Origin: Rhodobacterales bacterium
GTDB lineage: Bacteria > Pseudomonadota > Alphaproteobacteria > Rhizobiales > Stappiaceae
Direction: 5' to 3'
Assembly: GCA_008107755.1 (NCBI GenBank)
Contig: VIRH01000097.1
Span: forward strand, 62,001-126,000
DNA: 64,000 bases
Part shown: one piece after another, positions 44,471 through 56,416 of the stretch
Layout of the letters: each line of letters begins with the position of its first letter
How positions within the stretch are numbered: the stretch's first letter is position 1
Notes under the pieces: model-generated
Database searches by the model: none
The model's input: the letters and a program-made list of their open reading frames with translations, nothing else
What the model was told of the DNA's origin: nothing
Position numbers and translations under genes: made by a program

Positions 44471-46615
44471 CTATGAGGCGATCTCTAGAGAAGCGGATTG
44501 GTCCTGCCGAACCGGACCTTCAAGCGGAAACCGCAATTCGACCGTCGTTCCGGCCCCCGGCTCCGACAGGATGGTTGCCGTGCCGCCGCTCTGGCGGACA
44601 AAGCCGTAGACGACCGCCAGTCCGAGCCCGGCGCCCCCTTCGCCCGTTCGCGTCGTGAAATAGGGCTCGAACGCCTTGTCCACCTCTTCCCGCGACATGC
44701 CGACGCCGTCATCCTGGACGGCGACGACGATCCCGTCCTCCCCTCGCCGCGCGATCAGCCTGACGTCGCCGCCATCGGGCAGCGCGGCAGCCGAATTGAG
44801 ACACAGATTGAGGACGGACTGCTCGAAAAGCTCCGGATCAAGCGCAAGCCGGGGCAGCCCTTCCTCCAGATCGAGCGTCAGCCTGCATTTCTCGCCGATG
44901 GCGATTTCCAGAATGTCGGCCATGGCCGTGAGGACCGAGGACGGTTCGATCCGCGTCGGATTGACCGGCTGCTGGCGTCCGATGGTCAGCATGCTGCTGG
45001 CAAGCGACCGCCCCCTGTCCGCCGCCTTGCGGATGCGGGCGATGTTGCGCCGCTGCTTGTCGCTGAACCCGCCTTCGCCCTCCAGCAGCCCGAGACTGCC
45101 GGTGATGATGCCGATGGTATTGCCGACCTCGTGACTGAGCTGGTGGGTGAGGCGCATGATGCCGTCGAGGCGCAGCGCCTTGGCAGCTTCCGCTTCCTGC
45201 CGGTCCAGCAGCGTGACGTCGCGGGCAAGCAGCACCACGCCATCATCGCTCTGGGTCGACAGCGAAATCTCCGTCACAGTGCCGTCTCGCGCCCTGTGGC
45301 GCACGGAGACCGGTTCGCTGAGCGGCTGCGCCGCCTGGCCACCCGGCAAGGTTTCCGTCCGGATTTCGGGGATGGGCGCCAGAAACCGGACCAGAGGCAG
45401 CTTGCGCGCCGCGCCCTTGTGACCGAGCAGCTCGATCACCCGCCGGTTCATCGTCACCGGTTGGCCCGCCGCGTCGAAAATGGCAATGCCCTCGTTCATG
45501 CTGCGGAAGGTTGAGCGGATCGTCCGCGCGGCAGCTTCCGCCGTACGCCGAAGCCGCGTCACCCGGTCGGAACTTTCCTTGAAGGCCAGGAATGCCTGCT
45601 GGAGGTTCAAAAGCTCCGTCTCGTCGCCCTGATATTCCGGCAAGGCAACATCCTTCTGACCTTTCGCCAGGGCGTTCATGCCGCTGGACAGCGAAACGAT
45701 GCCGCGCGAAACCCGGAAAGCGGAGCGGATGGAAAAAGCGGCGATCCCCAGCACCAGAACCGAGGCGACAGCGACGATCACAAGCAGCTGCTGGAGCGTT
45801 TCCGACGTCTGCCGAAAGTCCCTGTTGAGCGATTGCGTGACGATGGCAGACTGGGTTTCCGTCGCATCTGATAGTTCCCGCGCCACATTGTGGAGCCGGG
45901 CAATCGCGGCGCGCACGTCGAACATCTCCAGAAGATAGGCGGTCTGCGCGTCGAAGACCTTCTCATACGGCTCAAGTTCCACGGCAAGAGCTGCGGCATC
46001 ACTTGGCTGCGCGGACGGCTCCGGCACCGTCTCGGCCACGAACCGCCGGCGCAACTCGCCAAGCTGGAACAGACTCCCCGCGCTCGACACCGAATGCACG
46101 AGCGCATTCAGCCGCTGGCGCATGTCCTTGTTCGCGGAATTGTCGCCGACGGCAATCACGCCCAGGGCAGAGGAAACCGCTTCCTTGTGCTTCTGGGCTG
46201 TCTCGGCCTTGAGCGACAGCGCCAGCGTCTGCTGCCGGATCTGCCTGAGCAGCGCGAAGATATGCGCATTGGCCGCGCGGTAGGCTTCCTTGCCCGGCGG
46301 ATATTCCGGAATGCTGCGCAACAGGACATCCACCTGTTCGACCAGCGCGTGGCTCTTTCCCGCCACCGTATAAGGCGAGGTCGCATTCATCAGAAAGGGC
46401 GCGCTGGAGACGAGGTCCGACACCTGCCGCGACACCAGCGACGCATCCGCGAGGCTGGAATAGGCCTGAAGCCCGTAGGCCGACGTCTCCGCCCGCGCCT
46501 TCAGAAGACCATAGATGGCAATCGCCGACAGGGCGAAGGCGACAGCACAGATCAACGCGATGGCGAGCGGAAGCCGAAACGCGATTGAGGACAGGAGCGG
46601 CCGGTTGATGATCAC
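44471..46615 (-). CDS. Membrane sensor histidine kinase
   Basis: A 714-residue kinase. TM1 is near 14-36, a long helical periplasmic sensor follows, TM2 is near 272-294, then HAMP, a PAS-like domain (STFRSMNEGIAIFDAAGQPV) and the kinase core. The phosphoacceptor H lies in QLSHEVGN (near 492), and the ATPase lid has NLCLNSAAAL (near 605) and GAGLGLAVVYGFVRQSGG (near 665). The GTG start overlaps the regulator stop (GTGA). Next to a binding-protein operon it resembles PgtB, which senses phosphoglycerates; this is inference. The periplasmic domain has no named family that I recognise. Confidence 0.88.
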   Translation of the reverse strand: MIINRPLLSSIAFRLPLAIALICAVAFALSAIAIYGLLKARAETSAYGLQAYSSLADASLVSRQVSDLVSSAPFLMNATSPYTVAGKSHALVEQVDVLLRSIPEYPPGKEAYRAANAHIFALLRQIRQQTLALSLKAETAQKHKEAVSSALGVIAVGDNSANKDMRQRLNALVHSVSSAGSLFQLGELRRRFVAETVPEPSAQPSDAAALAVELEPYEKVFDAQTAYLLEMFDVRAAIARLHNVARELSDATETQSAIVTQSLNRDFRQTSETLQQLLVIVAVASVLVLGIAAFSIRSAFRVSRGIVSLSSGMNALAKGQKDVALPEYQGDETELLNLQQAFLAFKESSDRVTRLRRTAEAAARTIRSTFRSMNEGIAIFDAAGQPVTMNRRVIELLGHKGAARKLPLVRFLAPIPEIRTETLPGGQAAQPLSEPVSVRHRARDGTVTEISLSTQSDDGVVLLARDVTLLDRQEAEAAKALRLDGIMRLTHQLSHEVGNTIGIITGSLGLLEGEGGFSDKQRRNIARIRKAADRGRSLASSMLTIGRQQPVNPTRIEPSSVLTAMADILEIAIGEKCRLTLDLEEGLPRLALDPELFEQSVLNLCLNSAAALPDGGDVRLIARRGEDGIVVAVQDDGVGMSREEVDKAFEPYFTTRTGEGGAGLGLAVVYGFVRQSGGTATILSEPGAGTTVELRFPLEGPVRQDQSASLEIAS

Positions 46616-47358
46616 GGCAGCGCACCCTGGTCGCGATGCAGGATGTAGCCCTTGCCTCTGCGTGTCTTGATATGCCGGGGGAGATCCGGATTGCGCTCGA
46701 TCTTGCGGCGCAGACGCAGCACGAGCACGTCGACATTGCGGTCGATCAGCCGGTCGGTCTCCGCCCCGAGCCGTTCCAGGATCGTCGTCCTGCTGACCGG
46801 CTCGTTGGGCGTTTCGGCCAGGATCTCCAGCAGAGAGAATTCCGAAGACGTCAGGGTGCGCGACGGGTGTGACCGACACATGGCCTTGCGGTTGACGAGA
46901 TCGATCACCCAGTCGCCAAGCAAGAGACCCGCCGGATCGCCAGACGATGCCTGGCCCTGCGCCTCCTTCTCGCTCTTGAGCGCCGGGTGAAGCCGCCTCA
47001 GCACCGCCTTGATGCGCGCGGTCAGCTCGATCGGCTCGAAGGGTTTGACCACATAATCGTCCGCCGCCGTTTCCAGCCCGAGAACGCGTTCGGCGGCACT
47101 TCCGGCCGCCGTGACCATGACGATGCCGATCTCGGTGCTGGCGCGCAGCTTCTGGGCAAAGACCCGCCCCGACATGCCGGGCAGATTGTGATCGACCAGC
47201 ACGAGGTGAAAGGTGGCGCGCGCGAGTACGCCGGCGGCTTCTTCTGCGGAGCTGGCGGTGCGGGGCTGCCAGCCCTCCGCCTCTATCAGATCGGAGATGA
47301 GCTCCGCCATGTCCTGATCGTCCTCCACAATCAGGATCCTGATGCCATCATTGAGCAA
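46612..47358 (-). CDS. OmpR-type response regulator of the organophosphate-uptake-like system
   Basis: A 248-residue regulator: receiver with IVEDD (10-14), phosphoacceptor D56 in VLVDHNLPG, Lys in YVVKPFEP, then a winged helix (RTLTSSEFSLLEILAE, DVLVLRLRRKIERNPDLP, RRGKGYIL). I chose the TTG at 47358 because GGGAGG lies 8 bases upstream and the receiver begins there; ATG at 47403 and GTG at 47412 are in frame. It shares a four-base overlap with the kinase gene. Upstream lie four tandem 9-bp repeats, its likely operator. Confidence 0.88.
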   Translation of the reverse strand: MLNDGIRILIVEDDQDMAELISDLIEAEGWQPRTASSAEEAAGVLARATFHLVLVDHNLPGMSGRVFAQKLRASTEIGIVMVTAAGSAAERVLGLETAADDYVVKPFEPIELTARIKAVLRRLHPALKSEKEAQGQASSGDPAGLLLGDWVIDLVNRKAMCRSHPSRTLTSSEFSLLEILAETPNEPVSRTTILERLGAETDRLIDRNVDVLVLRLRRKIERNPDLPRHIKTRRGKGYILHRDQGALP

Positions 47359-47426
47359 ATCCGTGTCCTCCCGAAACACATCATATGCAGCCTGCTCCAA
47401 CATGCAAATCACTGGTTTTTCTAGAG

Positions 47427-47462
47427 TTTGTCACATTTGTAAGGCTTGTAATATTTGTAACT
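47427..47462. promoter_or_regulatory. Four tandem 9-bp direct repeats, candidate response-regulator operator
   Basis: TTTGTCACA, TTTGTAAGG, CTTGTAATA and TTTGTAACT start at 47427, 47436, 47445 and 47454, exactly nine bases apart, sharing the core TTGTMA. OmpR-family regulators bind direct repeats as head-to-tail dimers; two pairs would suit two dimers. The array sits between the regulator start (47358) and the first binding-protein gene (47571), so it could control both directions. The 108 bases between the repeats and the gene hold its untranslated leader. Confidence 0.65.
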
Positions 47463-47570
47463 TCTTTTCTTCGCCGACGAAACAACGGTAACGAAACACG
47501 AGTTGCCAAGGCCGTTGGATCTGCCATGGTGGATGACAACCCGAAGCAAGACTTCGGGCCGGGAGGAACA

Positions 47571-48611
47571 ATGAAACTTGTCACGCCACTCGCAGCGAGT
47601 GCGGCCGTCTGGCTGTGCGCATCGCTCGCCGGTGCCTCGGCGCAGGACCTCAATGTCCTATGCGGCGTTGATGAGGACTGGTGCGCCACGATGGAAAGGA
47701 CCTTCGAGGCGGAAACCGGCCTCGATGTTTCCATGAGCCGCAGAAGCACCGGCGAAATCCTCGACCAGATCCGTATCGAAAAGGACGATCCGCGGATCGA
47801 CGTCTGGTGGGGTGGCACCGGCGATACGCATCTGCAGGCGGCGGGCGAGGATCTTCTGGAACCCTACCGACCTGAAAACGCGGGGGATGCCCTGCCATGG
47901 GCCCAGAATTTCTACCGTCTGTCCGGGGGAACCGCCTCCGGGGTCTACGCCGGCGCCCTGGGCTTTGCCTACAACTCCGACATTCTGGAAAAGCGCGGAA
48001 TTCCCGCGCCGTCCTGCTGGAAGGACCTGACGGACCCGCACTACCGCGGTCTGGTCCAAGTGGCCAATCCGAATTCCTCCGGCACCGCGTTCACCTTTCT
48101 CGCGACGCTCGTGCAGCTTCTCGGCGAAGAGGAAGCCTTCGAGTATCTGGCCGCGCTGTCGGCGAATATCGCCCATTTCACGACCTCGGGTGCGGCACCG
48201 GTCAAGACAGCCGCGCGCGGTGAAACCGGCATCGGCATTTCCTTCATCCATGACGCGGTAACGCAGAAGCTGGCCGGTGCGCCGCTTGTGATCGTCGCCC
48301 CGTGCGAGGGCACCGGCTACGAGATCGGTGCCGTCAGCATCGTCAAGGGCGCCCGCAATCTTGAAGCCGCAAGGCGCTTCGTCGATTTTGCCCTGAGCCC
48401 CGAAGGCCAGGCGACCGGAGCCGCCGCCGGGCAGAACCAGATCCCGTCCAACGCGCGCGCCGCCCTGCCGCCCGCAGCGCCGGACATTTCACTCATCCGG
48501 ATGGTCGACTACGACTTTGCGACCTTCGGTTCACCGGACCGCCGCCTGAGGCTGCTGGACCGTTTCGACAGCGAGGTGCTCGGAAATGCCGAACCCTTAG
48601 CGACCCACTGA
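47571..48611 (+). CDS. ABC transporter substrate-binding protein, AfuA-like (copy 1)
   Basis: A 346-residue periplasmic binding protein. The signal peptide ends after ASA (24). The segment RRSTGEILDQIR (58-69), WWGGTGDTHLQAA (79-91) and the binding region FIHDAV with H227 and D228, then CEGTGYE with E251, match the family often called iron(III)-binding. AfuA of this group instead binds sugar phosphates, using a His-Asp pair and a Glu 24 residues after the His, as I recall; that spacing is present here. It lacks the two adjacent Tyr of ferric-binding proteins. GGGAGGA precedes the ATG. It probably serves transport, signalling to the kinase, or both. Confidence 0.85.
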   Translation: MKLVTPLAASAAVWLCASLAGASAQDLNVLCGVDEDWCATMERTFEAETGLDVSMSRRSTGEILDQIRIEKDDPRIDVWWGGTGDTHLQAAGEDLLEPYRPENAGDALPWAQNFYRLSGGTASGVYAGALGFAYNSDILEKRGIPAPSCWKDLTDPHYRGLVQVANPNSSGTAFTFLATLVQLLGEEEAFEYLAALSANIAHFTTSGAAPVKTAARGETGIGISFIHDAVTQKLAGAPLVIVAPCEGTGYEIGAVSIVKGARNLEAARRFVDFALSPEGQATGAAAGQNQIPSNARAALPPAAPDISLIRMVDYDFATFGSPDRRLRLLDRFDSEVLGNAEPLATH

Positions 48612-48768
48612 AGGATCGAATTCGACATCGCGAATCTGGCCGGCAACGGAGCGCACCGCGCCTCCGAACGGGGAAGCCATGGCTTCCGCCGGCCAAGAGC
48701 GGCCGCAAGGCCGCAAAAACGTCCGTTTCGGCGGACACCGGGCTGAAAAGCCACAAGTGGAGGAAAAC

Positions 48769-49797
48769 ATGTCAATGAAAACCATTTCGGTCGCACTGCT
48801 TGCGTCCGCCGCCGCATTCACGGTCTCCGCGGCGCATGCCGAAGGCGACCTGAACGTCATCTGCTCCGCCGACGTCGTGATATGCGAACAGCTGGAGACC
48901 GAATTCGAAGCCAACCATGATATCCAGGTCAACATGGTTCGCCTGTCGTCGGGCGAAAGCTACGCCAAGATCCGCGCTGAATCCCGCAACCCGAAGACCG
49001 ATATCTGGTGGGGCGGCACCGGCGATCCGCATCTTCAGGCTGCCTCCGAAAACCTGACCCAGGAATACAAGTCGCCGAAGCTGGGCGACCTTCATGAATG
49101 GGCACAGAAGCAGGCGGAAAGCTCGGGCTACAAGACGGTCGGCGTCTATGCCGGCGCGCTCGGCTGGGGCTACAACACCGACATCTTCAAGGACAAGGGC
49201 TACAAGGAACCGCTTTGCTGGGCCGATCTTCTGAACGACGAACTGAAGGCCGAGATCCAGGTCGCAAACCCGAATTCGTCCGGCACGGCCTACACCGCGC
49301 TTGCCTCGCTCGTGCAGATCATGGGCGAAGACGAAGCCTTCGAGTATCTCAAGAACCTGAATGCAAACGTCTCGCAATACACCAAGTCGGGCTCCGCGCC
49401 GGTGAAGGCAGCCGCCCGCGGCGAATCGGGCCTTGGCATCGTCTTCATGCATGACGCCATCGCGCAGGCCGCCTCCGGCTTCCCGATCAAGGCCATCGCC
49501 CCGTGCGAGGGCACCGGCTACGAGATCGGCTCCATGTCGATCGTCAAGGGCAGCCGCAACCTGGAAAACGCCAAGATCTGGTACGATTGGGCCCTTTCGC
49601 CCGAGGTCCAGTCGCGGATGAAGGAGGCCAAGTCCTTCCAGCTTCCGTCGAACAAGTCCGCCGAGGTTCCGCCCGAAGCGCCGAAGTTCGAGGACATCAA
49701 GCTGATCGACTACGACTTCAAGACCTACGGCGACCCTGCGACGCGCAAGAGCCTCCTGGAGCGTTGGGATAAAGAAATTGGCGCGATAGCCAACTGA
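48769..49797 (+). CDS. ABC transporter substrate-binding protein, AfuA-like (copy 2)
   Basis: A 342-residue paralogue of the preceding gene. The signal peptide ends after AHA (24). The same key positions occur: SSGE (60-63), WWGGTGDPHLQAA, HDA with H228 and D229, and CEGTGYE with E252, again 24 residues after the His. It differs at the N-terminal ligand loop (SSGE versus STGE), so the two may differ in ligand. The 157-base gap after copy 1 holds weak hairpins but no clear terminator. GTGGAGG precedes the ATG. A strong terminator follows, so this gene may be expressed above the permease. Confidence 0.86.
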   Translation: MSMKTISVALLASAAAFTVSAAHAEGDLNVICSADVVICEQLETEFEANHDIQVNMVRLSSGESYAKIRAESRNPKTDIWWGGTGDPHLQAASENLTQEYKSPKLGDLHEWAQKQAESSGYKTVGVYAGALGWGYNTDIFKDKGYKEPLCWADLLNDELKAEIQVANPNSSGTAYTALASLVQIMGEDEAFEYLKNLNANVSQYTKSGSAPVKAAARGESGLGIVFMHDAIAQAASGFPIKAIAPCEGTGYEIGSMSIVKGSRNLENAKIWYDWALSPEVQSRMKEAKSFQLPSNKSAEVPPEAPKFEDIKLIDYDFKTYGDPATRKSLLERWDKEIGAIAN

Positions 49798-49812
49798 TCC
49801 CGACACCCGAAA

Positions 49813-49862
49813 GGGTCCGCGCCGGTTCCCCGAAGATCGGGCGCGGACCCACCCTTCTTTCA
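49813..49862 (+). terminator. Terminator/attenuator between binding protein and permease
   Basis: A perfect 11-bp stem (GGGTCCGCGCC 49813-49823, GGCGCGGACCC 49840-49850) with a 16-base loop is followed by ACCCTTCTTTC. It lies within the operon, before the permease gene, and would lower transporter expression relative to the binding protein, as in many ABC operons. Confidence 0.75.
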
Positions 49863-49887
49863 TAGACAACACAAGACAGGGGTGGCC

Positions 49888-52119
49888 ATGAAGAATGGCA
49901 ACAAACGGCTGAATGCCCTGATCGGCATCGGGCTGGCCGCATTCGTTTTCGTGCCCTGGTACAGGGTGGACAGCGGTTTCTTCGCCTTCGAATGGATCTC
50001 GCGCTTTCCGTTCAACGCCGATCTCGCGCCCGGGCTTCTGCAGATCGCCCTTGAGGGACGCATCTGGCTAACGGCGGCGCTCGCCCTGTTCCTGCTGGGA
50101 TGCTGCGCACGTTTCATGTCCGACGCGGATGCGCGGGGCAAGCTGCTCGTTGCCAGCGGAGTTGCCGGCATCATCTTCATGGCGCTGCAGGGTCTGGCCA
50201 TCACCTTCATCGGATGGTCGTGGGCCCTTCCCGAAACTCTGTTCGGCCCTCTTTCCATCGGTCAGCCCGCGATGGGCGCCGGGGCCATAACCATCTCCCT
50301 GATCTTCGTCCTCTTCATCGCCTTCGGACTGGCGGAACGAGGCTTCATGAAGGGCGACGCCTTCGTGGTCGGGTCGATCTCGGTTCTGATCTTTCTGGTC
50401 ACCGTCTTCATCTTCTACCCCATCGGCAGCATGTTCATCGGCTCGGTGCAGGACTTTGACGGCTCGTTCAAGCCGGACGGCCTCATCAGCAACATTCAGG
50501 ATCCCTCGATCTGGAGCCTTGATTGCCTCATCGGCGGCAACCGCTGCGGTGTTGCCTGGCGCACGCTCTTCCTTGCGGTCATGACCGGCCTCGGCTCGAC
50601 CCTCCTTGGACTGTGCTTCGCGCTTGTCGCCACACGCACGAATTTCCCGTTCAAGAAGGGACTGCGCCTCCTCACGGTTCTGCCGATCATCACGCCGCCC
50701 TTCGTCATCGGCCTTGCCCTGACCCTGCTGTTCGGCCGCTCGGGCGTCGTCACCGAAGCGCTCGATACCGTGTTCGGCATCGAACCCAGCCGCTGGCTCT
50801 ACGGTCTGACCGGCATCTGGATCGCGCAGGTCCTGTCCTTCACCCCGATTTCCTTCCTTGTCCTGATCGGCGTCGTCGAAGGTGTCAGTCCGTCCATGGA
50901 GGAGGCCTCGCAGACCCTGAGGGCCGACCGCTGGCGCACCTTCTGGCGCATTTCGCTGCCGCTGATGAAACCGGGCCTAGCCAACGCGTTTCTCATCGGC
51001 TTCATCGAAAGCATGGCCGATTTCGGCAATCCGCTGGTGCTGGGTGGCAGCCACGGCGTGCTGTCGACCGAGATCTTCTTTGCGGTCGTCGGCTCGCAGG
51101 TCGACCCGTCCCGCGCAGCAGTGCTTGCCATGATCCTGCTCAGCTTCACGCTGACCGCGTTTATGGCACAGCGTGTCTGGCTGTCGGGCAAGAACTTCGC
51201 CACCGTGACCGGCAAGGGCGACAGCGGCGCGCATGCCGGGTTGCCGAAGAGCATTTCGCTCACGGTTCACGGCATTGTCGTTCCCTGGATGGGCTTCACC
51301 ATCGTCGTCTACGGCATGATCCTGTTCGGCGGCTTCGTGAAGACCTGGGGCCTCGACAACTCCCTGACGCTGGAGCACTACGCCCGCGCCTTCTCGATCG
51401 ACATTCAGGACGGCGCTCTGGTCTGGTCCGGCGTCGCGTGGGATTCCTTCTGGACCACGATGGAAATCGCCCTGATTTCCGCGCCCCTGACCGCGGCCGT
51501 GGGCCTGCTGACGGCCTATATCATCGTGCGCCAGAAATTCGCGGGCAAGAATGCCTTCGAATTCGCCCTGATGATGAGCTTTGCGATCCCCGGCACGGTC
51601 ATCGGTATCAGCTACATCATGGCCTTCAACATGCCGCCGATCGAGATGACCGGCTCGGCCCTGATCCTGGTCGCCTGTTTCGTCTTCCGCAACATGCCGG
51701 TTGGCGTCCGGGGCGGGATCGCGGCGATGAGCCAGCTCGACAAGAGCCTGGACGAGGCCTCCCTGACCCTGAAGGCGAACAGCGCCCGGACCCTGCGCAA
51801 GGTGATCCTGCCGCTGCTGCGTCCCGCCATCACCGCGGCGCTGGTCTACTCCTTCGTCCGGGCGATCACCTCCATCAGCGCGGTCATCTTCCTCGTCAGC
51901 GCCGAATACAACATGGCGACGTCCTACATCGTCGGCCTGGTCGAGAACGGCGAATACGGCATCGCAATCGCCTATTCCTCGATGCTGATCTTCGTGATGA
52001 TCACCGTGATCGCCGGCTTCCAGCTGATCGTCGGCGAGCGGCGACTGCGCCGGGAAAACCGCGTCTCGGGTCTCGACCCCCAACGAAAAATCCGTTTCTC
52101 GCAGGAGAAAACCGCATGA
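49888..52119 (+). CDS. ABC transporter permease with two transmembrane domains (AfuB/FbpB type)
   Basis: A 743-residue permease. The N-terminal 170 residues add several hydrophobic segments before two fused BPD_transp_1 domains. Each has an EAA loop for the ATPase: EEASQTLRADRWRTFWRISLPLMKPG (near 340) and DEASLTLKANSARTLRKVILPLLRPA (near 620). The fused two-domain form is typical of FbpB/AfuB permeases. The start at 49888 is preceded by AGGGG at six bases. Its stop overlaps the ATPase start by four bases (ATGA). Confidence 0.9.
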   Translation: MKNGNKRLNALIGIGLAAFVFVPWYRVDSGFFAFEWISRFPFNADLAPGLLQIALEGRIWLTAALALFLLGCCARFMSDADARGKLLVASGVAGIIFMALQGLAITFIGWSWALPETLFGPLSIGQPAMGAGAITISLIFVLFIAFGLAERGFMKGDAFVVGSISVLIFLVTVFIFYPIGSMFIGSVQDFDGSFKPDGLISNIQDPSIWSLDCLIGGNRCGVAWRTLFLAVMTGLGSTLLGLCFALVATRTNFPFKKGLRLLTVLPIITPPFVIGLALTLLFGRSGVVTEALDTVFGIEPSRWLYGLTGIWIAQVLSFTPISFLVLIGVVEGVSPSMEEASQTLRADRWRTFWRISLPLMKPGLANAFLIGFIESMADFGNPLVLGGSHGVLSTEIFFAVVGSQVDPSRAAVLAMILLSFTLTAFMAQRVWLSGKNFATVTGKGDSGAHAGLPKSISLTVHGIVVPWMGFTIVVYGMILFGGFVKTWGLDNSLTLEHYARAFSIDIQDGALVWSGVAWDSFWTTMEIALISAPLTAAVGLLTAYIIVRQKFAGKNAFEFALMMSFAIPGTVIGISYIMAFNMPPIEMTGSALILVACFVFRNMPVGVRGGIAAMSQLDKSLDEASLTLKANSARTLRKVILPLLRPAITAALVYSFVRAITSISAVIFLVSAEYNMATSYIVGLVENGEYGIAIAYSSMLIFVMITVIAGFQLIVGERRLRRENRVSGLDPQRKIRFSQEKTA

Positions 52120-53177
52120 CCGACTTGAAACCCGGATCCGTCGTCTTCGAAAACATCCGCAAGGATTTCGGTGCCTTCACCGCCATACCGGATCTTTCGC
52201 TCACCATAGAGCCCGGCACACTCGTCACGCTTCTGGGCCCCTCGGGTTGCGGCAAGACGACGACGCTGCGCATGCTGGCAGGGCTGGAGCATCCCTCATC
52301 CGGACGCATCCTGATCGGTGGCCGCGATGTCACCATGACGCCGGCGCATGAACGCGACGTCTCGATGGTGTTCCAGTCCTATGCGCTCTTCCCGCATATG
52401 AATGCCCTGGAGAACGTCGCCTACGGCCTCGAGTCCTCCGGATACAACAAGCGGGAGGTCAGGGAGCGGGCGGAAGAAGGCCTTGCGCAGGTCGGTCTTG
52501 GCGGCATGGGGCATCGTCTTCCGGCGGAACTTTCCGGCGGCCAGCAGCAGCGCGTCGCGGTCGCCCGTGCGCTCGTTCTCAATCCCCAGGTGCTTCTGCT
52601 CGATGAACCGCTCTCGAATCTCGATGCGCGCCTGCGCCGAAAGGTCCGGACGGAGATCCGCGAACTCCAGCAAAGGCTCGGGTTCACCGCCGTCTATGTG
52701 ACCCACGATCAGGACGAGGCGCTGGCCGTCTCCGACAGGATCGTCGTGATGAAAGAGGGAAAGATCGCCCAGGAAGGTGCGCCAAGAGTGCTCTACGAGG
52801 AACCGGTCTCCGAATTCATCGCCGATTTCATGGGCGAGGCGAACGTGATCCCCTGCGAGGTGCTGTCGCGCGAGGGCGACGTGGCCCTGATCGATGTCGG
52901 CGGCCTGCAGCATCGTCTCCCAGCCCGGCAATCCTCCGCGGGAAAGGCGAAGCTGGCGGTCCGGCCCGGGTCGGTCGTGCTCAATCCGGATGCCGGAGGA
53001 GGCCTTGACGGCGAAATCCTGACCTCCGCCTATCTCGGAGATCACGTCGAATACGAGATCGAGACCCCGGTCGGAACGTTCTTCGTCATCGACCATTCGG
53101 TCGACCGGTCCCTGCCGGCCCACACCCGCGTCTCGCTGGGGTTCCGCAACAAGGGCCTGGCCCTTATCGAAAGCTGA
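52116..53177 (+). CDS. ABC transporter ATP-binding protein (AfuC/FbpC type)
   Basis: A 353-residue ATPase. Walker A is GPSGCGKTT (41-49), Q-loop FQSYALFPHM (86-95), signature LSGGQQQ (139-145), Walker B VLLLDEP (159-165) and the switch His in YVTHDQDEA. A C-terminal TOBE-like regulatory domain spans about 275-350. It energises the permease, with which it is translationally coupled. The phosphatase gene begins one base after its stop. Confidence 0.93.
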   Translation: MTDLKPGSVVFENIRKDFGAFTAIPDLSLTIEPGTLVTLLGPSGCGKTTTLRMLAGLEHPSSGRILIGGRDVTMTPAHERDVSMVFQSYALFPHMNALENVAYGLESSGYNKREVRERAEEGLAQVGLGGMGHRLPAELSGGQQQRVAVARALVLNPQVLLLDEPLSNLDARLRRKVRTEIRELQQRLGFTAVYVTHDQDEALAVSDRIVVMKEGKIAQEGAPRVLYEEPVSEFIADFMGEANVIPCEVLSREGDVALIDVGGLQHRLPARQSSAGKAKLAVRPGSVVLNPDAGGGLDGEILTSAYLGDHVEYEIETPVGTFFVIDHSVDRSLPAHTRVSLGFRNKGLALIES

Positions 53178-53178
53178 C

Positions 53179-54024
53179 ATGACATCACCAACGAGTACCG
53201 ATAAAGCGGTCCTATCCCGCCACGACCTTGAGACCCGCCGCCTGGCAGCGGAAACGATCGCCGAAGAGGCAGGTGCCCTCGCGATCGACTACTTCCGCCG
53301 CCGCGACGAGCTGACAATCGAGATGAAGCGCGATCCGCAGGATGTCGTGTCCGTGGCCGACAAGTCGGTCGAGGACCTGATCCGCAAACGCATCGCGGAA
53401 GCCTTTCCCGAGGACGGCATCCTCGGGGAGGAGCACGGGCTGCAACACGGCACAAGTGGCTTCACATGGGTGGTCGATCCGATCGACGGCACCTCCGCCT
53501 TCCTGCACGGTCTCGGCAACTGGTGCGTTTCCATCGCGGTCATCGAAGCGGAGGATCCGGTCGTCGGCGTCGTCAGGCTTCCCTGTGACGACGAGACCTT
53601 CTCGGCCATGCGGGACGCCGGCGCGACCCTCAATGGCCGGCCGCTGCACCTCGACAGCAGGAAGACCCTGAAAAACGCCCTGACCGGCATCGGCGCGAAC
53701 TCGCACATTCCGCCGAAGATGGCCGGGGCGCTGATCGAGGGACTGATGGCGACAGGCGGAAACTATGTCCGTACGGGCTCCGGCGCACAGATGCTGGCCT
53801 TCGTCGCCGCCGGCCGCCTCGTCGGCTACTACGAGCCCTACATGCATGCATGGGATTGTCTTGCCGGCTACTGCCTCGTGCGCGAAGCAGGCGGCAGTTT
53901 CACCGACTTTCCGGTGGCCGGTGATGCCATCCTGAAAGGCGGGCCGGTTCTCGCGGCCGGTCCGGGCGCCTTCGATGACCTCAAGGCGCTTGCCGACCGC
54001 TGCGAACCGCTGCGTCACGGCTGA
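53179..54024 (+). CDS. Inositol monophosphatase family phosphatase
   Basis: A 281-residue metal-dependent phosphatase. Metal ligands are GEEHG (83-87), DPIDGTSAF (100-108) and WD in AWDCLAGYC (near 223). The family hydrolyses inositol phosphates, fructose-1,6-bisphosphate, histidinol phosphate or 3'-phosphoadenosine-5'-phosphate. The gene is one base after the ATPase stop and thus the last gene of the uptake operon, which suggests that it dephosphorylates the imported compound inside the cell. That role is inference. Confidence 0.88.
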   Translation: MTSPTSTDKAVLSRHDLETRRLAAETIAEEAGALAIDYFRRRDELTIEMKRDPQDVVSVADKSVEDLIRKRIAEAFPEDGILGEEHGLQHGTSGFTWVVDPIDGTSAFLHGLGNWCVSIAVIEAEDPVVGVVRLPCDDETFSAMRDAGATLNGRPLHLDSRKTLKNALTGIGANSHIPPKMAGALIEGLMATGGNYVRTGSGAQMLAFVAAGRLVGYYEPYMHAWDCLAGYCLVREAGGSFTDFPVAGDAILKGGPVLAAGPGAFDDLKALADRCEPLRHG

Positions 54025-54128: not shown

Positions 54129-56240
54129 TCAGCCGACCTGCCGGACATTGTTCAGGAAGTCTTCGACTTCCTGACGCAGCCGGTTGGCCTCACGCTGGAG
54201 AACATGGGCGGAGGACGAGACCTGGCGGGCGGTCGTGCCCGTTTCGTCGGCGGAGGCGGAAACCTTGACGATGTTCATCGCGACTTCCTGAGTACCGTTC
54301 GAGGCCTCCTGGATGTTGCGCGCGATTTCGGTCGTCGCCATCCCCTGCTGTTCCACAGAAGCCTGAATGCTGGTGGAAATCTCGTTCATTTGCTCGATCG
54401 TCTCGGAAATGCCGCGGATCGCTTCCACCGAACCGGTGGTCTCCGTCTGGACCGACTGGATCTGCAGCGAAATCTCTTCCGTTGCCCGGGCGGTCTGGTT
54501 GGCGAGTTCCTTCACCTCGGCAGCGACAACCGCAAAGCCCCTGCCGGCTTCGCCGGCGCGAGCCGCCTCGATGGTCGCGTTCAGCGCCAGAAGGTTGGTC
54601 TGTTCGGCAATATCGGTAATCAGCTTGAGCACTTCGCTGATTCGCGTCGCGGCCTTGGCAAGACCCTCGATCTTGTCGTTGGTGGACTGCGCCTGACTAA
54701 CCGCGTTGGAGGCAATTTCCGAGGACTGGGTCATCTGACGGGAAATCTCGCCCACCGAGGCCATGAGCTCCTCCGCCGCAGACGCAACCGTCTCGACGTT
54801 CGAGGATGCTTCCTCGGAGGCTGCGGCAACAGCGGTGCTTTTCTCGCTCGTGTCGTCGGCACCTGTCGTCAGGGTCTCCGCGGCAACATTCAGGTCCTCG
54901 ACCTGCGTCAGCACCGTACGGGTAAGTTCGGAAATCTGCCGGTCGAAACTCTGGGAAAGGTCGCTGATGCGCTCCGCGCGGGCGAGCTGCTGACGCTGGA
55001 CCTCCTCCTGCTCGGCCGCCAGGGCTTCGGCTTGCTGCGCCTTCTCGCGGAAGACTTCAAGCGCCTTGCTGATCTCGCCGATTTCGTCGTGACGGTCCGT
55101 ATCCTTGATCGGCTCGTCATAACGGCGGTCGATCAGCGCCTGAATGCTGCCAACGGCACGTTCCAGCGGACGACGGACAATGGCGTTGCCGACGAGGTAG
55201 ATGGACAAGGCCACGACGATGAGAAGCACGACACCAACGATGACAATCATGGTGGTGATCGAGGACGATGCCGCGTTGAGGGTCGACAGCGGCACGTTGA
55301 CCACAACGGCAAGCTTGGCATCGGTACCGGTCACGTCGACCGGCATGACGATGCGGTGCACCTCGGTGTCGAGCGTGTTGGAATATCCGTCGTAGGCGAA
55401 GGGTTCGCCGTTCTTGACTGCGGCCAGCAGCTTGTCCTGCACGGCGAGATCGGCCTCGGACCGGCCTTCCGCCCAGGGTTTTCCGAGAACTGCTGAATCC
55501 GGATGAGCGATCCAGACGCCGTTCTGAGACAGGAGGTGGACCGACCCCGTATCCAGCGGGCTCAGTTCGCCCAGCGCTTCGGAAAGAGGTGTCAGGAGAA
55601 TGTCGCCGCCAGCGACACCGATCACGGTATCGCCGTCGCGGATTGGCGACGAGAAAGAGACACCGGTCACGACCTTCCCGTCGGCGTCCCAGTTGTAGGG
55701 TTCTGTCATGTAATCCTTGCCGGATACATAGGCGCCGTTGAACCAGAGGTCGCTGGCGATGCTCATGTCGCCGACAGTGAGCTCATCGATCGGCCGATAG
55801 GACAGGGTGCCGTCCGGCTTGCGGAAGTAGTAAGGCTGCCACTCTCCGCCGGGGGCCCATCTCTCGTTGCCCTTCAACTCCGCGTCCCTGCCGTCGAGCT
55901 TGTCACCAGTGACAACGCCCCATGTGCCAGCAACATCCATGTTGGTCAGGGTCACGTTTTCAACGACGGAGTTCCAAGCTTCACGGTCATCCACACCGGC
56001 TTTTTTCAAGCCGCTCAGAGAACTTGCCATTGTTTGCGCGGTCTTGAGGCCGTTTTCGAGGCCACGCTGAACAAACTCCGCCTGCTCACGCGCCACGGCC
56101 TCGGCTTCCGAGCGCGCAAGGTCCCCGGTGATCTGGGAAGCTTCCCATGCGATGAAACTGATGCCGACCACGAGGGCGGCCGTGAGGGTAGCCGCACTGG
56201 CTCCTATGAGCTTTGTTGTGACCTTTGCTCTTTTTAACAC
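54129..56240 (-). CDS. Methyl-accepting chemotaxis protein with dCACHE sensor
   Basis: A 703-residue chemoreceptor. TM1 (about 14-35), a periplasmic double-CACHE sensor ([45 protein letters not shown]), TM2 (near 345-365), HAMP, and a cytoplasmic signalling domain with the hairpin tip [38 protein letters not shown] domains bind small molecules such as amino or organic acids. I chose the GTG at 56240 ([11 protein letters not shown]) because GGAG lies seven bases upstream. No other chemotaxis gene is near. Confidence 0.9.
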
Positions 56241-56416
56241 CGGTAATCTCCGCAACTCGCAAGAATAGGCAGGCGAATACACGCCAAATTTCGCGTCACA
56301 TTACATACGTTGCGTTAACAAGGTATTCAGAGGGACATCTTTTAAGAGTTGTAGCGGTGATTTCATATACAATTACAGGTTTTTATTTAGATAGCATGTA
56401 ACGCAGGAAGGTCTGC

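Follow-up and report, generated by a model that had tools for sequence, protein, structure and literature searches.

Co-segregation of one of two AfuA-type binding proteins with a two-component system suggests division of transport and sensing at a probable sugar-phosphate import locus

A 64,000-nucleotide stretch of a 6.1-Mb Stappiaceae genome (contig VIRH01000097.1, assembly GCA_008107755.1; hereafter the window, on which all positions are given) contains a seven-gene locus of the AfuABC importer family. On the minus strand lie the genes for a 714-residue sensor histidine kinase (44471-46615) and a 263-residue OmpR-family response regulator (46612-47403). Divergent from these, the plus strand encodes two AfuA-type substrate-binding proteins (SBPs), SBP1 (47571-48611; 346 residues) and SBP2 (48769-49797; 342 residues), each with a signal peptide that we read by eye; a fused, AfuB-like permease of 745 residues with two BPD_transp_1 stretches (49882-52119); an AfuC-like ABC ATPase of 353 residues (52116-53177); and a 281-residue IMPase-family phosphatase (53179-54024) with the sequences GEE, DPIDGT and WDxxAG, which we take to be the metal motifs of that family. 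Between the divergent genes are four TGT(A/C)A boxes with an exact 9-bp period (47429-47460, plus strand), a candidate operator for the response regulator. Roseibium aggregatum and Stappia sp. BW2, in which SBP2 is 89% identical, are the nearest named relatives at this locus.

Pfam searches returned the expected family for all seven genes. The kinase has PAS-like, HisKA and HATPase regions, the HATPase match being well above its cut-off and the HisKA match just under it; no receiver domain was found in it by Pfam. Residues 35 to 280 or so form a helical periplasmic region according to our own reading of a model. The regulator and kinase genes overlap by 4 bases, as do the permease and ATPase genes, and a single base separates the ATPase and phosphatase genes. 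This divergent arrangement of close or overlapping genes had been described correctly in an earlier, sequence-only reading of the window (the original prediction). The span given there, 46612-54024, begins at the regulator and takes in six of the genes, leaving the kinase outside.

To characterize the locus, we compared the loci of the best 80 of 532 SBP2 relatives, all from named genomes, and added four more for a set of 84 (one of the four, L089, repeats L014). The kinase, regulator and SBP1 were scored as present at identities of 45%, 55% and 62%, respectively. All seven genes were found at 57 of the 80 loci. Ten lacked the phosphatase alone; nine of these are labelled Agrobacterium or Rhizobium, and the tenth (L060) ends at a contig edge. 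The other 13 consisted of SBP2, permease, ATPase and phosphatase, without kinase, regulator or SBP1. Across the 84 loci, SBP1, kinase and regulator were all present at 71 and all absent at 13, and no locus was mixed (67 and 13 among the 80). The locus is composed of two modules, an importer (SBP2, permease, ATPase and usually phosphatase) and a block of SBP1, regulator and kinase. That SBP1 segregates with the kinase and regulator and not with the importer was missed by the original prediction.

A LacI homologue took the place of the block at all 13 loci that lack it. The gene lies on the opposite strand, about 0.1 to 1.2 kb upstream of SBP2, in the open reading frame (ORF) lists of 12 of the 13 (in L079 the frame merges), and Pfam upheld the family for L041, the one protein tested. 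Whole-genome searches of the 13 LacI-type genomes gave one SBP match each, 48 to 50% identical to SBP1, and this match was SBP2. The kinase had no match in these genomes at E 1e-60, while the same query recovered its target in the order-wide search. Among 297 genomes from across the order, five encoded SBP1 (at least 69% identity), and the same five encoded the kinase (at least 62%), with the genes side by side; this set includes the window genome and overlaps the 84 loci, four of its five positives being the four added loci. No copy of the kinase was found outside the window genome among 289 genomes searched class-wide at E 1e-50. The window genome encodes a second kinase (G000:C131:92566-94632) that is 28% identical to the window kinase over nearly its full length. 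In a tree of importer proteins, built by a quick method from 78 of the 80 loci, the supported branches force at least four switches between the state with the block and that with LacI, and SBP1 and the kinase moved together in all four.

The box array likewise belongs to the region before SBP1. A pair of boxes at the 9-bp period was present in 48 of 68 such regions, and three boxes in 36, against a Markov model expectation of 0.0012 pairs per region. Before SBP1 there were no box pairs at other periods between 6 and 13, and pairs were absent from all 13 LacI loci and from all 67 regions before SBP2. The three-box pattern did not recur elsewhere in the window with one mismatch allowed (expected 0.01), and it had no exact match elsewhere in the 6.1-Mb genome (reversed control, 0). 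The simplest reading of these sequences is a two-component system with a single promoter, at which the regulator would bind the boxes.

The original prediction had interpreted the operon as a sugar-phosphate rather than an iron importer, and comparison with solved proteins agrees with it. In phmmer searches of the PDB, SBP1 matched AfuA with 295 bits (E 5.6e-87), VcA0625 (8x1a), a glucose 6-phosphate (G6P)-binding protein according to its entry title, with 278 bits and P5PA with 238 bits. SBP2 matched VcA0625 with 312 bits (E 7.5e-92), AfuA with 304 bits (E 1.4e-89) and P5PA with 250 bits. The highest-scoring ferric-binding protein was Thermus FbpA (3wae; 47 bits with SBP1), so that this group reached at most 47 bits versus 295 to 312 for the best matches. 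SBP1 and SBP2 are 45.5% and 46.1% identical to AfuA and 49.6% identical to each other. While SBP2 was placed by sequence, SBP1 was also compared as a structural model (predicted local distance difference test [pLDDT] score, 91.7). Its nearest solved structure was G6P-bound AfuA (4r73; template modeling [TM] score 0.93, 1.3 Å), and then came VcA0625 and P5PA, followed by a Salmonella SBP (4r6y) and iron proteins; ferric-binding proteins gave TM scores of 0.67 to 0.81. An adjacent Tyr pair is the iron-binding mark of FbpA-type proteins, and, as the original prediction had noted, neither SBP sequence contains one. An iron label, such as operons of this kind often carry, would be unsupported.

The published AfuA binding site, including the essential residues His205, Asp206 and Glu229 (PMC4546632), was mapped onto 71 SBP1 and 84 SBP2 orthologues, 155 in all. 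His205, Asp206, Glu229, Ser148, Thr150, Thr60 and Tyr103 were invariant in 71/71 SBP1 and 84/84 SBP2 proteins. Gln269 was kept in 70/71 and 84/84, including the window pair. The His-Asp-Glu triads at 227/228/251 of SBP1 and 228/229/252 of SBP2, which the original prediction had equated with the AfuA triad, are numbered correctly and align with it, and the AfuA residues are as published (PMC4546632). Position 37, which together with Thr150 holds phosphate in AfuA, is Ser in 84/84 SBP2 and Thr in 70/71 SBP1 proteins; P5PA likewise holds phosphate by Thr37 (PMC8427247). P5PA has Ala at positions 206 and 229 (PMC8427247), whereas Asp206 and Glu229 are kept in every SBP1 and SBP2 compared. The AfuA authors listed 121 alpha- and betaproteobacterial homologues (PMC4546632), and the substrate class is thus of a known kind. 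Import of a phosphorylated sugar or a close analogue is, in our judgment, highly probable.

Two AfuA contacts differ in both proteins and a third in most SBP1 proteins. Thr11 is replaced by Asp in 69/71 SBP1 and 84/84 SBP2 proteins, the window pair included, Gly36 is replaced by Ser in all of both, and Ser9 is replaced by Gly in most SBP1 proteins, including that of the window. Because position 11 is highly variable in remoter relatives, with Gln the commonest residue, it is a candidate specificity position. Among such relatives, L099, L100, L101 and L126 encode AfuA-like SBPs in tandem, one copy of which carries Met-Glu at the His205-Asp206 positions and Ser at Tyr103; that copy probably binds a different ligand.

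To compare constraint on SBP1 and SBP2, we took as reference 29 homologues from loci at which a single SBP was found: AfuA, VcA0625 and those of 27 related loci, of which six adjoin a kinase. Of the conserved pocket positions, SBP1 kept 11 of 12 and SBP2 kept 12 of 12; of the conserved positions outside the pocket, SBP1 kept 73 of 100 and SBP2 kept 92 of 100. A ligand site that is held while other constraint is relaxed is expected if SBP1 no longer serves the permease. In addition, SBP1 falls in a clade (Shimodaira-Hasegawa approximate likelihood ratio test, 98; no bootstrap) with the SBPs of five genomes of another family, each of which lies beside a different, longer TorS-like kinase with 26 to 28% identity to the window kinase. 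SBP1 is thus no recent duplicate of SBP2. Together with the co-segregation, these data make a sensory role for SBP1 more probable than not.

The N-terminal region of the kinase was modelled as all helical (pLDDT 83; predicted TM score 0.63). Its top Foldseek matches included PilJ (2.4e-3), TorS (6.3e-3), TorS-TorT and McpS (4.9e-2), with MukB and microtubule proteins interspersed. A profile of the region, searched against PDB sequences, gave a single meaningless match (E 2.2). Co-divergence was examined at 60 of 67 loci and rejected as support: with ATPase distances removed, the kinase sensor correlated with SBP1 at 0.74 and with SBP2 at 0.42, and the permease control tracked SBP1 too.

Several results weigh against a sensing SBP1 coupled to this importer. 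The permease control just mentioned runs the wrong way, at 0.74 with SBP1 and 0.48 with SBP2. A sign test on the four switch pairs yields p 0.125, and with this number of pairs significance at 0.05 is out of reach. The block is contiguous, and one replacement extending up to SBP2 could remove kinase, regulator and SBP1 without any functional coupling. The looser constraint on SBP1 could reflect faster evolution alone. L113, whose listed ORFs include no kinase, also falls in the SBP1 clade, and the SBP of L124 lies outside it despite its own position beside a TorS-like kinase. At L093-L097 and L124, AfuA-like importers with a single SBP stand beside a regulator and a longer TorS-like kinase, which at L124, the only case tested, is a hybrid; since one SBP lies beside the kinase there, a separate sensor copy is not required. 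No Foldseek match to the kinase sensor had an E value under 0.001, the best matches included unrelated long-helix proteins, and the McpS sensor that also appeared there binds its ligand unaided according to its entry title. Exact box pairs were absent from 20 of the 68 regions before SBP1. The nine Agrobacterium or Rhizobium loci have no phosphatase homologue, and with Asp at position 11 and Ser at position 36 the ligand need not be G6P or fructose 6-phosphate. As a separate observation, the pockets of the L093-L097 SBPs have Glu11, His103 and Asn269.

Alternatively, both SBPs could deliver ligand to the permease, each with its own specificity or affinity. The kinase would then perceive its ligand without a partner protein, by means of the helical domain, and SBP1 would disappear along with the kinase through adjacency. 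The AfuA-like pockets of both proteins, the contiguity of the swapped block, the permease distances and the resemblance of the kinase sensor to the McpS/PilJ class all fit such an arrangement, as do nine distant loci with two or three SBPs and no kinase match in our gene tally (L099-L101, L118-L121, L125 and L126). It accounts less well for the finding that none of the 84 loci keeps SBP1 without the kinase or the reverse, for the greater loss of conserved nonpocket positions in SBP1 than in SBP2, and for the clustering of SBP1 not with SBP2 but with five SBPs that adjoin kinases. We consider it possible but unlikely.

The substrate was approached through the phosphatase and the neighbors of related loci. 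The phosphatase missed the NCBIfam cut-offs for HisN (168 of 275) and inositol-1-monophosphatase (122 of 332), and outside this locus the genome encodes five relatives of it, of which the most similar is 46% identical; it therefore looks like an accessory component. The original prediction had coupled it to import, releasing the sugar inside the cell, and the coupling is backed by recurrence: an IMPase homologue occurs at 14 of 36 more distant AfuA-like loci, in varying gene order. At both loci tested, L094 and L043, the ATPase gene is followed by one for a HAD hydrolase. In L043, from Rhizobium anhuiense, this gene (L043:12490-13131, plus strand) lies between the ATPase and the IMPase-type phosphatase genes, and its product is a candidate second sugar phosphatase of that operon. 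Pfam was run on 20 proteins, hand-chosen from many, at distant loci (18 neighbors, the L041 LacI protein and the L124 kinase). Eleven of the 18 neighbors suggest sugar or phosphate metabolism (two HAD proteins, two GFO/IDH/MocA proteins, two short-chain dehydrogenases, a glucokinase, an IlvD/EDD protein, an RpiR-SIS regulator and two glycerol-3-phosphate dehydrogenases), and the other seven give no such indication (tRNA synthetase-like, amidohydrolase, DUF1045, guanylate cyclase, patatin, TonB receptor and Ldh_2). The recurrence of the phosphatase, together with LacI and RpiR-SIS regulators and sugar-type enzymes near some relatives, favors a sugar or polyol phosphate that is dephosphorylated after entry.

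The same comparisons bear on whether the ligand is another phosphorylated small molecule, such as pyridoxal phosphate, 2-aminoethylphosphonate or a phosphorylated polyol, and not a hexose or heptose phosphate, which would be compatible with either view of the sensor. This idea draws on the altered contacts at positions 11 and 36, on the kinship with P5PA and on NCBIfam, where the best SBP model was PhnS2. However, SBP1 and SBP2 reached half of the PhnS2 cut-off (197 and 195.5 of 392.75 bits), and the cut-offs of PhnU2 (265.6 of 593.25) and PhnT2 (365.8 of 457.7) were missed as well. Asp206 and Glu229, replaced by Ala in P5PA, are kept; a phosphatase is chemically ill suited to a phosphonate; and regulators and enzymes of sugar type lie near some relatives. 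Such a ligand appears doubtful. A ferric iron importer of the FbpABC kind is highly improbable: superfamily membership, the iron-transport names of the AfuA and VcA0625 chains in the PDB and an ATPase score of 365 bits on a ferric ATPase model (cut-off, 496) are set against the missing Tyr pair, the low scores of ferric-binding proteins and the structures nearest to SBP1.

These considerations lead us back to the reading in which transport and sensing are divided between the two SBPs. SBP2 would capture a phosphorylated sugar in the periplasm and deliver it to the permease and ATPase, and the IMPase-family phosphatase would remove the phosphate in the cytoplasm. SBP1, a proposed periplasmic co-receptor, would bind the same or a very similar ligand and relay this to the kinase at its helical domain in the periplasm. 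The kinase would then phosphorylate the regulator, which may act at the TGT(A/C)A boxes before SBP1 to turn the operon on. That the locus encodes an ABC importer for a sugar phosphate of the hexose, heptose or polyol kind, together with a two-component system of its own that senses the ligand, seems to us somewhat better than an even proposition. We lean, though only slightly, toward the fuller version, in which one AfuA-type SBP of the pair has turned into a co-receptor dedicated to a TorS-like kinase, this kinase governs one promoter in the whole genome, and the sensing block was repeatedly exchanged with a LacI regulator while the importer stayed unchanged.

Two other features of the region were considered. 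A methyl-accepting chemotaxis protein with a dCache domain is encoded at 54129-56282 on the minus strand, convergent with the phosphatase gene. It was rejected as a member of the system, a similar gene being found at 2 of 100 related loci (L003 and L096; E 1e-60), and chemotaxis to the same ligand through this receptor is unsupported. The intergenic region between SBP1 and SBP2 (48612-48768) has an unusually stable predicted RNA fold (z -3.63); a structured RNA there was dropped as a candidate, as z was below -2 in just 2 of 67 relatives.

Our results extend sugar-phosphate import to a locus of many Rhizobium, Agrobacterium, Shinella, Neorhizobium, Roseibium and Pannonibacter genomes, in which its genes can easily be mistaken for an iron uptake system. 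The block for sensing is rarer than the importer, occurring in 5 of 297 genomes across the order. With putative transport and sensing copies side by side and sharing the same ligand residues, the locus would offer a clean system for studying how an SBP that supplied a transporter comes to serve a kinase; having a single box array, it is also a candidate sugar-phosphate biosensor. A literature search of open-licence papers found no published description of this arrangement.

In kind the locus is ordinary, a member of the AfuABC family; what is new is the binding-protein pair split between transport and sensing, a variant worth testing. Like the AfuABC hexose- and heptose-phosphate importer of Actinobacillus pleuropneumoniae and Citrobacter rodentium (PMC4546632), it has a permease, an ATPase and an AfuA-type SBP with all essential residues. 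It differs in its two SBPs, the Thr11-to-Asp and Gly36-to-Ser changes, the IMPase-family phosphatase and the divergent two-component system. The pyridoxal-phosphate importer that uses P5PA (PMC8427247) has a 39% identical SBP but Ala at the Asp206 and Glu229 positions. In TorT-TorS-TorR a helical kinase sensor works with a periplasmic binding protein, as is proposed here, and TorS and TorS-TorT are among the top, weak fold matches (E 6e-3); the ligand is different, and the window kinase lacks a detectable receiver domain. In Salmonella PgtC-PgtB, a sensor protein for a phosphorylated metabolite acts via a kinase and regulator on a transporter gene (PMC11077982). There the ligand is 3-phosphoglycerate and the transporter PgtP; the PgtC-PgtB-PgtA system is comparable in arrangement. 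In Staphylococcus aureus, the G6P-binding SBP HptA signals to the histidine kinase HptS (PMC8774646). HptA shares the fold of SBP1 (6lkg; TM score 0.79) with weak sequence similarity (36 bits), but HptS has a double-PDC sensor (PMC8534201) and HptASR drives the UhpT antiporter, whereas the present locus pairs a helical sensor with an ABC importer. HptA and PgtC are precedents that, among other lines of evidence, suggest that SBP1 senses a sugar phosphate on behalf of the kinase.

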